A stretch of DNA of 48,680 nucleotides from a virus: the IMG/VR virus record IMGVR_UViG_3300040801_002997, positions 1-48,680 of that record, one strand, 5' to 3'. Under the pieces are notes generated by a model. The model ran no database searches. It saw only the letters and a program-made list of their open reading frames with translations, and was not told the origin of the DNA. Below, in pieces: positions 1,152 to 11,296 of this stretch. A program made the position numbers and the translations under genes. Numbering within the stretch: the stretch's first letter is position 1; every line of letters starts with the position of its first letter.

Positions 1152-2533
1152 GCTGGTATATTTAATACTATCTCTATGTTTTTTTTCAATGTTAACATCT
1201 TCGCCCCATTAAACTCAAACTCTTTATGTATCCATGCAAGGTAGCTCTTTGGGATATCTTTTAACATCTTATCGTTGTGTTTACCAAACCAAAGTTTTGC
1301 TGTCTTTGCAGTCTGCTCCTCTGTCATGTTTTTTCTTGCAAGCCTTGCTCTTAACGATTGCTTGGTTGGTCTTTTAAACCCTGAGGCTTGTACGATGTCT
1401 GTAAGTAACTCATCTCCTGTAAACATACCCCAACCATAACCATCAATGTACTCATAGTTAAGGTGCTCAATAGGACCGAAGTTGCTTGTATTACCAGATA
1501 AATCAACAATCTTCGTATTCGCCTTTTTCGGGTGAATACGAGTTCCTCTTCCTAACATCTGGTAATAAAGAGCAATAGATGCTGTAGGCCTGGCAAGGAC
1601 TATGGCATCCAACTGAGGGTGATCAAATCCTGCAGTAAGAACCTGTACGTTAAACACAGTTCTAACTTTACCGGACTTGAAATCGTTGATAATCTGGTTC
1701 CGCTCGCTCTTTTTTGTCTTGCTGCTTACAACAGCTGAGTTTGGCACCTCTTTAGATAACTCTCTTGCTTCTACTATACTTGGTACAAAAACCAGAATAC
1801 TTTTACGGCCCTCATCAATTAACTCCCCAACGGTCTGTACTACATCCTGGTGGGTATTGTTTATTTCATAGGCTATCTTTATACTCTCTTTGGTATAGTC
1901 CGTACCAGCCTGGTTAAACTCAAGACCTTCCATTTCGTCAGTCCTGATGTCATATATCAATTCAGACCAGTATTTAGCATCAACAAGTTCTTTAATCTGT
2001 ACAACGTGATGTATATTTGAGAACATGTTTTTAAATGATCTATTCATCATTTTTAACATACCCCCGTCACCCCCTGTTGTTAGGATTACTGGTGTTGCTG
2101 TAACGCCAAGGACATTCTTAATACCAGCATCTTTTATGAATTTATCGATAGTTGACCCTCTTGCCGTACCTATGTGACACTCATCTATGATGATGTACTT
2201 AACACCAAGGGCCTTTACCTCCTGGTGGTATTTCTTTATGCTTTGGATTGTTGCGTAGGTTACGTGACCTAACTCCTTGCTGTTCATTGAGGCTGAGAAT
2301 ATACTGGCCTGGTACCCATAGGAGGTGTACTTAGCATAATTCTGCTCAAGGAGTTCTTTATTTGGTTGTAGGACAATGGTAGGTGCATCAAGCCTGCTAA
2401 CCGTACCTGCTATACAGATAGACTTACCATACGCCACAGGGGCTACCATTATCTCCTTACGTGAAGACTTTGATTGCAGAACTTCAACTGCTTTATTTAC
2501 AAACTCTTCCTGAGTACCTCTTAAACTTAACAT
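1148..2533 (-). CDS. Superfamily 2 DNA/RNA helicase
   Basis: This is a 461-residue ATP-dependent helicase of superfamily 2. Motif I is APVAYGKS (about 31-38), motif II is DECH (117-120), motif III is TATP (145-148) and motif VI is QMLGRGTR (325-332). It resembles UvsW/RAD25-like phage enzymes that unwind branched recombination and replication intermediates. Position as first gene of an operon with RecA supports that role, by inference. The start ATG lies only 5 nt downstream of a perfect TATATTTG promoter element, so the mRNA is probably leaderless. The 3' end overlaps recA by 4 nt. Confidence 0.92.
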   Translation of the reverse strand: MLSLRGTQEEFVNKAVEVLQSKSSRKEIMVAPVAYGKSICIAGTVSRLDAPTIVLQPNKELLEQNYAKYTSYGYQASIFSASMNSKELGHVTYATIQSIKKYHQEVKALGVKYIIIDECHIGTARGSTIDKFIKDAGIKNVLGVTATPVILTTGGDGGMLKMMNRSFKNMFSNIHHVVQIKELVDAKYWSELIYDIRTDEMEGLEFNQAGTDYTKESIKIAYEINNTHQDVVQTVGELIDEGRKSILVFVPSIVEARELSKEVPNSAVVSSKTKKSERNQIINDFKSGKVRTVFNVQVLTAGFDHPQLDAIVLARPTASIALYYQMLGRGTRIHPKKANTKIVDLSGNTSNFGPIEHLNYEYIDGYGWGMFTGDELLTDIVQASGFKRPTKQSLRARLARKNMTEEQTAKTAKLWFGKHNDKMLKDIPKSYLAWIHKEFEFNGAKMLTLKKNIEIVLNIPA

Positions 2534-2538
2534 AGGTA

Positions 2539-2569
2539 CAAATATACAAAAAATAAACTAACCTTGCAA
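2539..2569 (-). promoter_or_regulatory. Promoter of helicase-recA operon
   Basis: On the minus strand TTG (2569-2567) is followed by exactly 20 nt and TATATTTG (2546-2539), matching the Bacteroidota housekeeping promoter. Only 5 nt separate the -7 element from the helicase ATG, so transcription should start at or next to the start codon. Confidence 0.8.
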
Positions 2570-2618
2570 ATATAATTAATACAATTTTATACTTGAATAA
2601 GCGTTTGTGTTGTGGGAC

Positions 2619-2635
2619 TTAAAGTATAACTTTAA
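2619..2635. repeat. Perfect 7-bp palindrome upstream of helicase promoter
   Basis: TTAAAGT-ATA-ACTTTAA is a perfect inverted repeat with a 3-nt centre. It lies 50 bp upstream of the helicase -33 element, a suitable place for a regulator to bind. A near copy (14 of 15 bases) lies upstream of the gene at 47151. Its function is unknown. Confidence 0.45.
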
Positions 2636-2646
2636 CTCACTTTACA

Positions 2647-2680
2647 GCTTATGCTTTTGTGAAGCCGACTCTAAGCATAT
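2647..2680 (-). other. Hairpin-forming intergenic segment
   Basis: Minus-strand TATGCTT pairs perfectly with AAGCATA across a loop of about 15 nt, extended by a competing GCTTA/TAAGC pairing. A further GAAGC/GCTTC pairing from neighbouring bases would exclude the first stem. The segment lies between the ncRNA T-run and the helicase promoter. I see no tRNA arms and no ORF here. It could be part of an origin or a regulatory element. Confidence 0.35.
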
Positions 2681-2746
2681 TATTGATTTACAACCTTAGC
2701 TTCGTTTATTGTGAGGTGGTCTGTAATGTGTGAAGTCTATAAAAAT

Positions 2747-3079
2747 AAAAAAAAAAGCGTTTAGGGTCATGTATTTGTGCGTTGCGGACCTCAACCCTCC
2801 GTAGGTTCCCTTCTCCAAGAGACACCTAAGGGGGCCCCAGCACCATAACCCTCTGACGTTGCTGAGTGGATTTTTTGTTTTGGAATTGAAGAACGAGACC
2901 ATCATACGGATTCTTAGTCGCCTATTCGATACACAGTGATGTTTTGGTGTACCTACATACATTCCTTTGGCAGAAATCTTATAAACTACCATACTCTGGC
3001 GGTGTACCCGGGGAGGGGCCTCTTCCATTTGACTCTTACCTACGAGCTCTTTCGAGCGGTTACGTAGCACTGGGGTATT
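2747..3079 (-). ncRNA. Candidate structured non-coding RNA, about 330 nt
   Basis: A canonical promoter directs leftward transcription from about 3079, and a 10-T run at 2756-2747 marks the probable end. Near the 5' end CTACG (3067-3063) pairs with CGTAG (3044-3040). Inside that helix GCTC and GAGC enclose a GAAA tetraloop (3057-3046). A long-range helix joins CCCCAGTGC (3075-3067) with GTGCTGGGG (2843-2835), 9 bp with two wobbles. A local CTCAGC/GCTGGG helix would compete with it. The segment is more GC-rich than the flanks. The overlapping 147-codon frame has no protein-like composition and reads through the T-run. Group I intron, RNase P, tmRNA and SRP signatures were looked for and not found. 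The RNA is unidentified. Confidence 0.55.
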
Positions 3080-3084
3080 TTTTG

Positions 3085-3115
3085 CAAACTTACAAAAATA
3101 AATTGACTTGTGCAA
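3085..3115 (-). promoter_or_regulatory. Promoter of the candidate ncRNA
   Basis: TTG (3115-3113), exactly 20 nt, then TAAGTTTG (3092-3085) on the minus strand. It follows the terminator of the upstream leftward gene and has no convincing ORF downstream, which is a main reason for calling an RNA gene. Confidence 0.75.
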
Positions 3116-3129
3116 ATTTTTTATTAAAA

Positions 3130-3153
3130 AACCCCTCATCCGAAGACAAGGGG
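3130..3153 (-). terminator. Rho-independent terminator of the 89-residue gene
   Basis: On the minus strand CCCCT-TG-TC and GA-TG-AGGGG form a stem with a UUCG tetraloop, followed by TTTTTT. It lies about 20 nt after the stop of the leftward gene at 3175-3444. Confidence 0.8.
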
Positions 3154-3174
3154 CAACACACCATCAACACTAAT

Positions 3175-3444
3175 CTACTCTAAACTATTTCTGAAATTGT
3201 CGGGAATCTCCCTAATATTTTCAGTACCTGGGTTAAAGAAGAACAAATTGGTCATTGTAATCTCAACCATTTTTTTGATGTAACGGGGATCTATGTGAGC
3301 CATCTCATAAAGACGGAACAGCTCAAGGGACCAGTTACGAATAAAATCATCGTTCTCTTCCAGGTATGCCGTAGATACTATGATTTCCAGGGATTCGTCT
3401 TCCCACAGATATTCATAGAAATCATGAAAATTCATTTTATTCAT
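3175..3444 (-). CDS. Unknown small acidic protein (89 residues)
   Basis: A monocistronic leftward gene with its own promoter (3469-3499) and its own terminator (3130-3153), which is strong evidence that it is real. The protein is acidic and rich in aromatic residues (FHDFYEYLWEDESLEII near the N-terminus) and is probably mostly helical. It has no signal peptide, membrane segment or known motif. Standing apart from the structural genes and back to back with the rightward promoter, it could be an early host-takeover or regulatory protein, but that is only an inference from position. A second in-frame ATG three codons in is an alternative start. Confidence 0.75.
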   Translation of the reverse strand: MNKMNFHDFYEYLWEDESLEIIVSTAYLEENDDFIRNWSLELFRLYEMAHIDPRYIKKMVEITMTNLFFFNPGTENIREIPDNFRNSLE

Positions 3445-3468
3445 CGGTATAACTGTATTGGTTTAAGA

Positions 3469-3499
3469 CAAAGATACGAACAAGTTATGAGACTACCAA
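3469..3499 (-). promoter_or_regulatory. Promoter of the 89-residue leftward gene
   Basis: TTG (3499-3497), exactly 20 nt, then TATCTTTG (3476-3469) on the minus strand, leaving a leader of roughly 20 nt. It is divergent from the rightward promoter at 3531-3561. Confidence 0.78.
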
Positions 3500-3530
3500 A
3501 AGTCTAAAATAAAATTAAATGTAAGAAAAT

Positions 3531-3561
3531 TTGCATAATTCATAAATTTTTGTTAACTTTG
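3531..3561 (+). promoter_or_regulatory. Promoter of the rightward packaging operon
   Basis: TTG (3531-3533), exactly 20 nt, then TAACTTTG (3554-3561). A leader of about 30 nt, rich in A and C, precedes the ATG at 3600. Confidence 0.8.
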
Positions 3562-3599
3562 CAAATCTAAACACCACAACAACACTATTATACGAACGC

Positions 3600-4007
3600 A
3601 TGCAGAGTAAAAATGATAACAGTAGATTGCAGGTGCTGGACAAACTCTCCCTTGCGGACAGGTGCTTTTACAAAAACGAAATTGACTTGGTAGATAAACT
3701 TTTAAGCATATACTCTATTACCAAGAAAGATAAAAAGCAACAACTACGTAAGTTTGAGAAGGACGTCCTGAATTACTACATGAGGTTTGGTTATAGTCCA
3801 GAAACAAAAAAGAAGCTGATAGAGGATCTAAAAAAATCATCAGACTCTATAACTCAAGCCACATTTTACCTGACAAAGAAGGGATACCTGGTACAGAATG
3901 AAAGAAACTTTGCCAAGAAAAGTTTATCAAAAGACCTACTAAGATTTAGTGAGGCATTTGTATCTGGAGATAAAGTAATGTTAGTTCTTGCATTTAAGAG
4001 AAAATGA
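3600..4007 (+). CDS. Unknown protein, possible winged-helix DNA-binding protein
   Basis: A 135-residue basic, mostly helical protein. The segment from about residue 75 (SSDSITQATFYLTKKGYLV) reads like a recognition helix followed by the wing of a winged-helix domain, with a Lys/Arg-rich surface. It is the first gene of the packaging operon, behind a good promoter. DNA-binding proteins in this position are often small terminase subunits or regulators, and either is possible. I cannot assign it to a family. It overlaps the next gene by 4 nt (ATGA). Confidence 0.75.
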   Translation: MQSKNDNSRLQVLDKLSLADRCFYKNEIDLVDKLLSIYSITKKDKKQQLRKFEKDVLNYYMRFGYSPETKKKLIEDLKKSSDSITQATFYLTKKGYLVQNERNFAKKSLSKDLLRFSEAFVSGDKVMLVLAFKRK

Positions 4008-8515: not shown

Positions 8516-11296
8516 ATGTCCACGTTTTTAAATAGTCAGTATCATTACTATAACGGGCTTGGTGCTAACCAAATAGCCAACTCTCTACCTGTACAAACTC
8601 TACCAGATAGCAGTAAAGGCCCAAAGTGGCAAAAAAATGTTATGGATAGGTTGGAGATGATTGCCCTTACCCAAGTTAGTAATAACCTTGAGTTCAGGGA
8701 TTATTACAAGATGGTTGAGGGTCGCCTTGTATATTCTGATTTTGAAGCACCACCCGAGATAACAAAAGACATCGCCACCTTAAGACAGGAGATGGATCTA
8801 CCCACTTATCTTAGACACTATGACATCATTGGAGTAGTAGCCAACCTACTTACCGGTGAGTTAGACAATAATAAAGATAAGCTGAGGGTAGATTCTATAG
8901 ATGAGTATTCTCAAAATGAATACATTAGGGAGAGGAGCAGCAGGATTAACGAGTACATGAAACAAAAGTTTGACATGGAAGTCCGCAGAGGGTTAGCCAT
9001 GAAGGGTATTAACCCCGATGCAAACATACAGTTTCAAAGTGAAGAAGAGCAGCAGCAATATATGCAAATGCTGCAGGCAGAAGCTGCTAAAATTGTAAAC
9101 CCTGAGCATATAGAAAAAGAACTCAGTAAAAGCTTTAAAGTAAAAGCAGCTGAGTGGGGGGAGGCAACATTGGAGGCCGACACTGAGCGGTTTGGATTAG
9201 ACTATCTGGAAGAACAGGAGTTCATGGATTACTTCCTTACTGGAAGGTACTTTAGGCACTACCAAATTGGGTATGACTTCTACAAGCCAGAAAGGTGGAG
9301 GGTAGAGCAGGTATTTTTTTCACAAGATCTCGACATAGAGTATCCACAGGATGGAGAATATGTAGGAAGGCTCACATGGATGAGCGCCTCCGAAATTATA
9401 AGCAGGTGGGGGGAGAAGTTATCACTAAAAATCCAAGAACAGCTTGGGAAAGTTTACGACAATACAAAAGGTCAAGACGGTGGGCAAAAGTCAGACTTCA
9501 CTACAAAACTACAAAGACCAGTAGGATCTGATACTGTTCCTCACCAGGATTACTACGATCAACAACTTACACTACAGCTCCAAGAGGCGTTTGGCGTACC
9601 TGCGGGTATGTCAACATATATCGATGAGAGCGGCCAGGTAAAGACAGCTCCAGATTGGTTATCTGGTTATACTACAAATGAAGCCTTCTTTGGCTCAAGA
9701 TATGCTCAAAATCTTAGGAATGACATAGAAGTAAGAAGGGATTTATTTAGAGTAACAGAGGCCTACTTTAGAAGCTACAAAAGGGTAGGGTACTTAAGGT
9801 ATCAATCGCCAACAGGAATTATAGCAGAAGAGTTGGTTACCGACGACCTTTTAAAGGACTTCATAAAGGAGAACAATATTAAGCAGATGAAATCCATTTC
9901 CCTTGAAGATTTCGAAAAGGGGGATGAGGTTAACGTAATTGCTTACTTCTACGTTCCAGAGATATGGAGCGGTAAGAAGATTTCAGCAGCAGGAGGACTT
10001 GGGTCTCAGGAAATCATATTTGATGTAAAACCACTTGAGTTTCAGATAAAGGGAGAGAGCAATATTTTTGATGTAAAGCTACCAGTATCTGGAATTATCA
10101 CCAGCTCTTATGCACGAAGGCTGCGTCCGTACCAAATGGGGTACAATATCTGCATGAACCAGATATTCAACCTACTTGAGAAGGAGATAGGAATGTTCTT
10201 CCTTATGGATATTAACTTCCTACCTTCTGAGTTTAAAGACATGGGGGATAGCGCAGAGCTGCTTGCACAGCTGAGAGAGATGGCGAGAGACCTTGGGTTT
10301 TTACCTGTTGACACCTCAAGACAGAACATGGCTGGTACAAATCCACAAGCCGGGTACTTCCAAAAGCAAGACATCTCCTATGATGTTCAGATTAATAGGA
10401 GGGCTGTTATGGCAGAAATGTATAAGAGGCTGGCTCTTGAGCAAATTGGAATCACAGAGCAACGTAAAGGAACTCCAGACCAATATGCTACTGCTGAAGG
10501 TATAAGGGTAGGACAGGAGGCTTCCTATGCGCAAACGAGAACTATCTATAGTAAGTTCAACGAGGCAAGAAAGAAAACAGCCATACTACACTTAAATGTT
10601 GCCCAATTCTGCCAGGGTGAAAATAAAGACATAACAGTATTCAGCAGGAGAAGTGATGGAGATATTGCTTTTCTTGAGTTTTCAGATGAACTATTCCCAC
10701 TAAGACAGCTTGGGATTACAGCGGTATCAGACTCGAAGGCAAGGAAAAGCCTTGAAAATCTTCGTCAGTTTATGATGCAGAATAATACTGCAGGAAGTGA
10801 CATACTTGACTTTGCACAAATTATGACTGCAGACTCCATGGTTGAGATGATAGACATTGGTAGAAGAAGCAGGTTGAAACAACAACAAGATAAGCAAGAA
10901 GAACGTCAACACGAAGAGAAACTTCTACAAATGGAGCTTGATGCCAAGAAAGAAGAAAAGGCTAACGATCAAGCAATTCTTGAGCAGTCTAAAGAGCGTG
11001 ATCGTGAGATGCGAGTTCAGGTTGCAGAGATACAAGCTCTTGGTCGTGCCAGCGATAAGCAGTCAGACCAGGCTGGTATTGCAGCTATTAAAGAGGCCGC
11101 AGACCAGGCATTCCAAGAGAGGAAGCACGATGATGAGATGGGCCTAAAGGAGGTGGAGCAAGAGATGAAGCAACAACAAATGCAGCAGACAAATAAGCTC
11201 CAAGAAGCAGAGCTTAGACTTAAACTTGAAGAGTTAAGAGAGAAGAGAGCTCAGAGAAGATCTGAAGATATGAGAGCAGTTATTAATAAAAACTAA
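8516..11296 (+). CDS. Portal protein
   Basis: A 926-residue portal, which would form the dodecameric ring at the head vertex through which DNA passes. It is identified by size, position directly after the terminase, and architecture. The N-terminal part contains DIIGVVANLLTGELDNN, the central part is a mixed alpha/beta region, and the C-terminal region of about 130 residues (from about 795) is rich in Gln, Glu and Lys and forms a long coiled coil, like a barrel helix. The portal call rests on pattern and synteny, not on an invariant motif. It has its own promoter and one of the few clear Shine-Dalgarno sequences in the window. Confidence 0.85.
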   Translation: MSTFLNSQYHYYNGLGANQIANSLPVQTLPDSSKGPKWQKNVMDRLEMIALTQVSNNLEFRDYYKMVEGRLVYSDFEAPPEITKDIATLRQEMDLPTYLRHYDIIGVVANLLTGELDNNKDKLRVDSIDEYSQNEYIRERSSRINEYMKQKFDMEVRRGLAMKGINPDANIQFQSEEEQQQYMQMLQAEAAKIVNPEHIEKELSKSFKVKAAEWGEATLEADTERFGLDYLEEQEFMDYFLTGRYFRHYQIGYDFYKPERWRVEQVFFSQDLDIEYPQDGEYVGRLTWMSASEIISRWGEKLSLKIQEQLGKVYDNTKGQDGGQKSDFTTKLQRPVGSDTVPHQDYYDQQLTLQLQEAFGVPAGMSTYIDESGQVKTAPDWLSGYTTNEAFFGSRYAQNLRNDIEVRRDLFRVTEAYFRSYKRVGYLRYQSPTGIIAEELVTDDLLKDFIKENNIKQMKSISLEDFEKGDEVNVIAYFYVPEIWSGKKISAAGGLGSQEIIFDVKPLEFQIKGESNIFDVKLPVSGIITSSYARRLRPYQMGYNICMNQIFNLLEKEIGMFFLMDINFLPSEFKDMGDSAELLAQLREMARDLGFLPVDTSRQNMAGTNPQAGYFQKQDISYDVQINRRAVMAEMYKRLALEQIGITEQRKGTPDQYATAEGIRVGQEASYAQTRTIYSKFNEARKKTAILHLNVAQFCQGENKDITVFSRRSDGDIAFLEFSDELFPLRQLGITAVSDSKARKSLENLRQFMMQNNTAGSDILDFAQIMTADSMVEMIDIGRRSRLKQQQDKQEERQHEEKLLQMELDAKKEEKANDQAILEQSKERDREMRVQVAEIQALGRASDKQSDQAGIAAIKEAADQAFQERKHDDEMGLKEVEQEMKQQQMQQTNKLQEAELRLKLEELREKRAQRRSEDMRAVINKN

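Follow-up and report, generated by a model that had tools for sequence, protein, structure and literature searches.

Few viruses of Bacteroidota are as abundant as the crAss-like phages. RNA II of ColE1 and the origin transcripts of phage T4 are structured RNAs with a G-rich stretch, lie beside replication genes and prime or mark replication, and the pRNA of phage phi29 is a phage RNA with an essential fold. GOLLD and ROOL are phage RNAs of unknown function that are often found near tRNA islands (PMC12286853), and the theta (HDV-like) ribozymes are structured RNAs of gut phages that lie beside tRNAs (PMC10879173). Our survey of the open-access literature found no conserved structured non-coding RNA for crAss-like phages.

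Here we analyse a segment of the 48,680-base virus record IMGVR_UViG_3300040801_002997, the whole of which is referred to below as the window. The segment almost certainly belongs to a real family of structured non-coding RNAs, and we read it, with a probability of about 0.6, as a discrete structured non-coding RNA of a family not in Rfam that functions in trans in folded form. Like GOLLD and ROOL, it is phage-encoded, structured and non-coding with a conserved, elaborate fold, and it is likewise discrete and covarying. The setting near tRNA islands is seen for the family in one phage (locus L031), whereas most carriers have no tRNAs nearby; the RNAs of the family are 270–330 nt long, compared with ~660 for a ROOL example and >800 for GOLLD; and they match neither GOLLD nor ROOL in sequence or covariance model. 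Since one carrier shares the tRNA-island setting, but sequence, size and model match are not shared, the RNA forms a new family within a broad kind already known. The theta ribozymes are also structured phage RNAs near tRNAs, but they differ in size and fold, and the present family is found mostly away from tRNAs and has no match to an HDV-type model in Rfam. The pRNA of phi29 is likewise a folded phage RNA not far from packaging genes; unlike it in setting, the window RNA lies ~2.7 kb from the terminase gene and is transcribed away from it.

The RNA gene and its transcription signals

The terminase, portal and structural genes of the window run rightward, and the minus strand carries genes for RecA/UvsX (132–1151) and a DEAD/ResIII helicase (1148–2533). 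The nearest named phages are Cellulophaga phages phi4:1 and phi17:2 (TerL 35%, helicase 39%) and the epsilon crAss-like phage csAssE-Sib. The consensus of Bacteroidota-type promoters is TTTG-N19/20-TAnnTTTG, and the presence of such promoters in the window is consistent with its placement near the Cellulophaga and crAss-like phages.

The RNA gene is predicted to occupy positions 2747–3078 of the minus strand, giving a transcript of ~332 nt from just past a promoter to a run of ten T; both ends are predicted from these two signals, and across the family the RNA is about 270–330 nt long. The preliminary description had claimed a promoter with N20 spacing and a closing 10-T run, and both are present. 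The promoter, of Bacteroidota type as judged from its sequence (3085–3116, minus), consists of TTTG at 3116–3113, a spacer of exactly 20 and TAAGTTTG at 3092–3085, and the T10 run at 2756–2747 (minus) is the probable 3′ end. Upstream, a 10-bp stem and T-run at 3131–3154 (minus), the predicted strong terminator of an 89-aa gene, separates that gene from the RNA. Downstream, the helicase gene has a promoter of its own at 2539–2570 (minus), with TTTG at 2570–2567, an N20 spacer and TATATTTG at 2546–2539. The terminator of the 89-aa gene and the separate helicase promoter together mark the RNA segment as its own transcription unit.

The same layout is found in the relatives described below. Of 17 homologous sequences, 16 carry a TAnnTTTG box 10–17 nt ahead of the RNA and 13 have a fully spaced −33/−7 pair upstream, the latter compared with ~0–2% in shuffles. 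A −7 box stands directly before the start codon of the helicase or recA gene at all 17 homologous loci (as part of a full promoter at 13), after a gap of 114–332 nt from the RNA to that gene. Six of the 17 loci are without a spaced −33/−7 pair on either the upstream or the downstream side. In most close relatives (L012 and L014–L029, excluding L028), the RNA is preceded by a tandem pair of promoter boxes spaced ~52 nt apart, at ~60–70 and 11–17 nt upstream; the window has a single box. The gap between the RNA and the next gene (~2570–2740, minus, in the window) holds inverted repeats that differ among relatives when compared by eye, an example being GGTCTTCTAAGG/CCTTAGAAAGAC in L023.

Searches for known RNA classes were negative. 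At the gathering threshold, Rfam 15 gave no match for the RNA in the window, and permissive cmscan searches (E up to 5) returned nothing overlapping the RNA in window positions 2500–3600 and no Rfam match in relative L018. The Rfam models of RNase P, tmRNA, SRP, 6S, group I intron and HDV-type ribozymes were unmatched, as were the GOLLD and ROOL covariance models in these cmscan searches, and ARAGORN found neither a tmRNA nor a tRNA. The earlier failure to place the segment in a familiar RNA class (RNase P, tmRNA, SRP or group I) is borne out at both stringencies.

Distribution and gene neighbourhood in related phages

Terminase-guided retrieval from IMG/VR yielded 80 loci, in many of which the RNA, used as nhmmer and blastn query, had its match where it lies in the window, in the gap between the helicase and 89-aa genes, at a terminase identity of just 43–47%. 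L031 and L043, with terminase identities of 33–36%, also matched. Stricter DNA patterns added L417 and L438, a check with the covariance model left family members only, and a final DNA pattern scan found no additional carrier. Searching phage records with blastn gave no match for the window RNA and chance matches only for that of L018. A loose two-part DNA pattern, run on genome and viral contigs, was discarded because its matches were mostly due to chance, and weak covariance-model matches in G005/L443 (within a coding gene), L041, L033/L036 and L030 were rejected.

The RNA is present in 18 of the 18 closest terminase relatives (L011–L029 without L028) and in three distant phages, L031, L043 and L417. 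It was not detected in Cellulophaga phi4:1, and the intermediate relatives L028, L041, phi4:1 and L039 gave no significant match to the model. The carriers are environmental phages related to Cellulophaga phi4:1 and the epsilon crAss-like phages. On the terminase tree, where they fall into the clade of the window, the divergent L031 and, in a separate clade, L043, their distribution requires three changes, a clustering far beyond chance. Ancient origin with loss or divergence, and transfer, are both possible explanations of this patchy distribution.

In the phage of L045, a partial relative at L444:1501–1562 (E ~3e-6 for that genome) comprises the 5′ domain of the RNA only, that is, helices H1, H1b and H2 and the motif GCTAAA, preceded by a promoter-like box and followed by unrelated sequence. 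The 5′ domain may be modular; a descriptor search for more copies of it gave chance matches only.

In the related IMG/VR contigs, the RNA adjoins a helicase or recA gene, and the co-directional gene that follows it is the helicase, or recA in L417 and L043. In the window and L417, the 89-aa gene points the same way as the RNA; in L011–L029, the two are divergent. The position of the RNA is kept whichever way the 89-aa gene points and whichever of the two genes lies downstream. A tRNA island fills the gap in L031 and in phi4:1, and the RNA of L031 stands at the end of an island of 18 tRNAs; no tRNA lies near the RNA in the window or in L011–L029.

The tRNA islands contain further elements. A second unannotated hairpin RNA is found at L005:9348–9430 (phi4:1) and L031 ~2550–2460 (minus); the loops GAGAACCGTTAGTTG and ATAAACGAGCAAACGTCATACT are common to both copies, the closing helix differs, and there is no match in Rfam. 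A promoter, a long stem and a T-run occur in the tRNA region at L005 ~9629–9760, L031 ~2010–1910 (minus) and L041 ~6400–6260 (minus), where, by eye, the loop of the stem base-pairs with a stretch further downstream (ACCTACC/GGTAGGT, CCCACC/GGTGGG and CCCTTAGAC/GTCTAAGGG); judged from these sequences, the element looks like another conserved pseudoknotted RNA or a terminator. Two sequences resembling tRNAs at L005:8990–9250 (phi4:1) carry exceptionally long insertions ahead of the T arm and score weakly with the tmRNA model; they are possibly intron-bearing or degenerate tRNAs.

Conserved fold and covariation

Thirteen relatives, not including the window, served to build a covariance model, R1, with 160 positions and 35 pairs. 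The model recovers the window at 3070–2925 (minus) with 74.3 bits and an E-value of 9e-18, and it scores the distant loci L031, L417 and L043 at 86.7, 77.0 and 76.8 bits, with E-values of 4e-17 to 1e-19, all of these E-values being rough by the tool's own statement. Among 17 distinct sequences, two-sided compensatory changes occur at 26 of the 35 pairs. In these 17 sequences, 96.4% of cells are paired, compared with 32–48% when the partners are slid by 1–3 columns, counts that lean towards structure because the alignment was fitted to the model and that overstate the number of independent events because the homologues are mostly of one lineage. No shuffle out of 500 reached the observed covariation values. 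The large gap to the controls and the recovery of the held-out window make model fitting an unlikely explanation, RNAalifold returned nearly identical pairs from the same alignment, and independent support comes from the deep carriers, L031, L043/L417 and the window.

This comparison has to carry the proof, since on its own the window sequence is no more stable than shuffles: the minimum free energy of the window RNA is −89.2, compared with −88.2 ± 5.3 for shuffled sequences (z −0.19). The strong pairing claimed in the preliminary description therefore fails for the single sequence, and the evidence beyond chance is comparative. The local helices it named fared better, in that covariation was found when they were checked in relatives. 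The GAAA-capped hairpin that it placed within a CTACG/CGTAG helix is present, and both helices covary: H1 (3040–3067, minus) pairs CTACG at 3067–3063 with CGTAG at 3044–3040 and has two-sided changes at four of six pairs, and H1b, inside it (3057–3046, minus; GCTC-GAAA-GAGC), has them at all four. Docking of a GNRA tetraloop was rejected, as the H1b loop is not GNRA in L018, L029 and L417.

H3 (2997–3027, minus) has an invariant outer helix, TGG/CCA at 3027–3025 and 2999–2997, an invariant internal loop, TGGAAGAG...CGCCAGAG, and a variable inner stem with two-sided changes at 6/6 pairs. H4 (2969–2990, minus), GGTAG at 2990–2986 with CTGCC at 2973–2969, has two-sided changes at 3/5 pairs and 100% of cells paired, and H6 (2928–2953, minus), GGTACA at 2953–2948 with TGTATC at 2933–2928, has them at 5/6. 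H6 and H7 are enclosed by a closing helix, H5 (2882–2965, minus; GGAAT at 2965–2961 with ATTCC at 2886–2882), which is absent from R1 and emerged when every pair of columns was scanned. The strands of H5 were positioned manually, in a register from the flanking invariant motifs that is constant in the window and most relatives; 12 distinct helices were found with 53 of 60 cells paired, and none of 10000 strand shuffles scored as high. The variants in relatives include GTTAC/GTAAC, ACCAC/GTGGT, ACTAC/GTAGT, GTTAT/ATAAC and TTTGC/GCAAT, and the GGAAT/ATTCC of the window is a different, fully paired version.

An invariant A6 linker (2871–2876, minus), recognised in the alignment, lies between H5 and H8. 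H8 (2838–2864, minus), placed by eye in the window as CAGCA at 2864–2860 with TGCTG at 2842–2838, has two-sided changes at five of six pairs in relatives; it corresponds to the local CTCAGC/GCTGGG helix noted earlier, which is conserved with covariation. Its U-rich loop, GGATTCGGTGTTTTTCC, is nearly invariant in relatives and lost in the window copy. The A-rich linker and the U5 loop of H8 might form a triplex or pseudoknot, a guess from their sequences. H9 (2795–2834, minus) pairs CCCCCTTAGGT at 2834–2824 with ACCTACGGAGGG at 2806–2795, a window counterpart inferred from position; in folds of the relatives it is a pyrimidine/purine hairpin followed by TGTTTT at the end of the RNA. Several loops of the RNA are better conserved than its stems. 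A helix GTAG/CTAC, joining the starts of H6 and H8, was left out of the fold, since it is largely invariant and, in L031 and the window, disrupted.

The preliminary description had also proposed that a 9-bp long-range helix competes with the local one as a conformational switch. The pairing exists in the window (2835–3075, minus; CCCCAGTGC at 3075–3067 with GTGCTGGGG at 2843–2835), where the energy model prefers it with a probability of ~0.85, but none of the 16 relatives can form it: their equivalent segments reach 3–6 bp at best. Conserved mutually exclusive helices, the mark of a riboswitch, were thus not found for this 9-bp competing helix; confined as it is to the window, it leaves the switch unsupported. 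The predicted minimum-energy fold of the window differs from the conserved fold, which costs ~15 kcal/mol there (−73.7 kcal/mol constrained versus −88.8 free), and on the energy model a window-specific rearrangement is therefore possible. What stands of the proposal, by covariation and the negative Rfam searches, is a structured, non-coding phage RNA of ~330 nt, predicted to be independently transcribed, that belongs to no known class.

Alternative explanations and proposed function

The least improbable alternative, though still unlikely, is that the RNA is a long cis-acting 5′ leader or attenuator, riboswitch-like, of the helicase or recA gene, with H9 and the T-run as a regulated terminator. 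As in riboswitches and attenuators, a structured RNA lies upstream of a gene, here co-directional and always helicase or recA, H9 in relatives resembles a terminator hairpin, and the window is able to form the competing 9-bp helix. Unlike in those systems, the downstream gene has a predicted promoter of its own, which would disfavour a cis leader; the downstream gene also varies, and there is no conserved alternative helix. Next in rank, and also improbable, comes an origin element, in which the transcript would prime or mark the replication of phage DNA and its G-rich 3′ strand would promote an RNA–DNA hybrid. With RNA II and the T4 origin transcripts the RNA shares structure, a G-rich stretch (GAGGGGGTAAGGGGG in the 3′ strand of relatives) and replication-gene neighbours, helicase and recA, at or near the divergence of two gene arms, and the cumulative GC skew of two contigs (123 and 128 kb) reaches its global minimum within ~250 bp of the RNA. 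The 3′ end of the window RNA is less G-rich, however, and in L031, where the tRNA island lies between the RNA and the point at which the gene arms diverge, the skew minimum remains at that point, 5 kb away from the RNA. This location away from the RNA, at the switch of orientation, disfavours an origin primer and indicates that gene orientation, not the RNA, explains the coincidence.

A self-cleaving or processing ribozyme tied to the tRNA islands of related phages, to which the RNA at the end of the L031 island and the tRNA neighbours of theta ribozymes (PMC10879173) might point, is more improbable again: the size of ~300 nt, the lack of an Rfam ribozyme match and the absence of nearby tRNAs in most carriers, the window and L011–L029 among them, all disfavour it. 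That the segment is an ordinary protein gene or a product of chance pairing can practically be dismissed. The window does have an uninterrupted 147-aa frame (3139–2696) that spans the RNA, and the fold energy of its sequence is the same as for shuffles, but the frame is unique to the window, being lost in all relatives, it has no Pfam or PHROG match, and the covariation is far above controls. A conserved ATG opens 7–41 codons in relatives, in shifting frames, on which ground a 28-aa ORF starting from it in L018 and L021 was rejected; the homologues keep no common frame, in agreement with the earlier finding of no credible protein. A frame preserved among homologues and helices that fail to covary had both been named beforehand as grounds for refutation, and the RNA withstood each of these checks.

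Overall, the computational analysis shows the layout of an own transcription unit, a conserved multi-helix fold, no conserved frame and no Rfam match. In the preferred reading, a discrete RNA acting in trans, the host RNA polymerase would transcribe the RNA from a Bacteroidota sigma-factor promoter, alongside the replication and recombination genes, and the RNA would work as a folded scaffold, with a protein, the ribosome or its own copies as binding partner. Its working surface would be the invariant positions, namely the internal loop UGGAAGAG/CGCCAGAG, the A6 linker and the loop GGAUUCGGUGUUUUUCC of the relatives, and by analogy it would be akin in kind to GOLLD and ROOL rather than to an antisense RNA or a switch. 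More tentatively, and with the odds against it, it may represent an RNA class whose function is new among catalogued RNAs, a small, highly conserved RNA machine or ribonucleoprotein made during infection across a whole crAss-related lineage, perhaps built on the guessed contact between the A6 linker and the U5 loop of H8.

The defined fold, promoter and invariant loops make the RNA directly testable in a cultured host, and the covariance model can be used for Rfam and in metagenome and metatranscriptome searches. All the close relatives found, together with some distant phages, carry this covariation-supported RNA, a pattern that suggests strong selection for a function at the RNA level.
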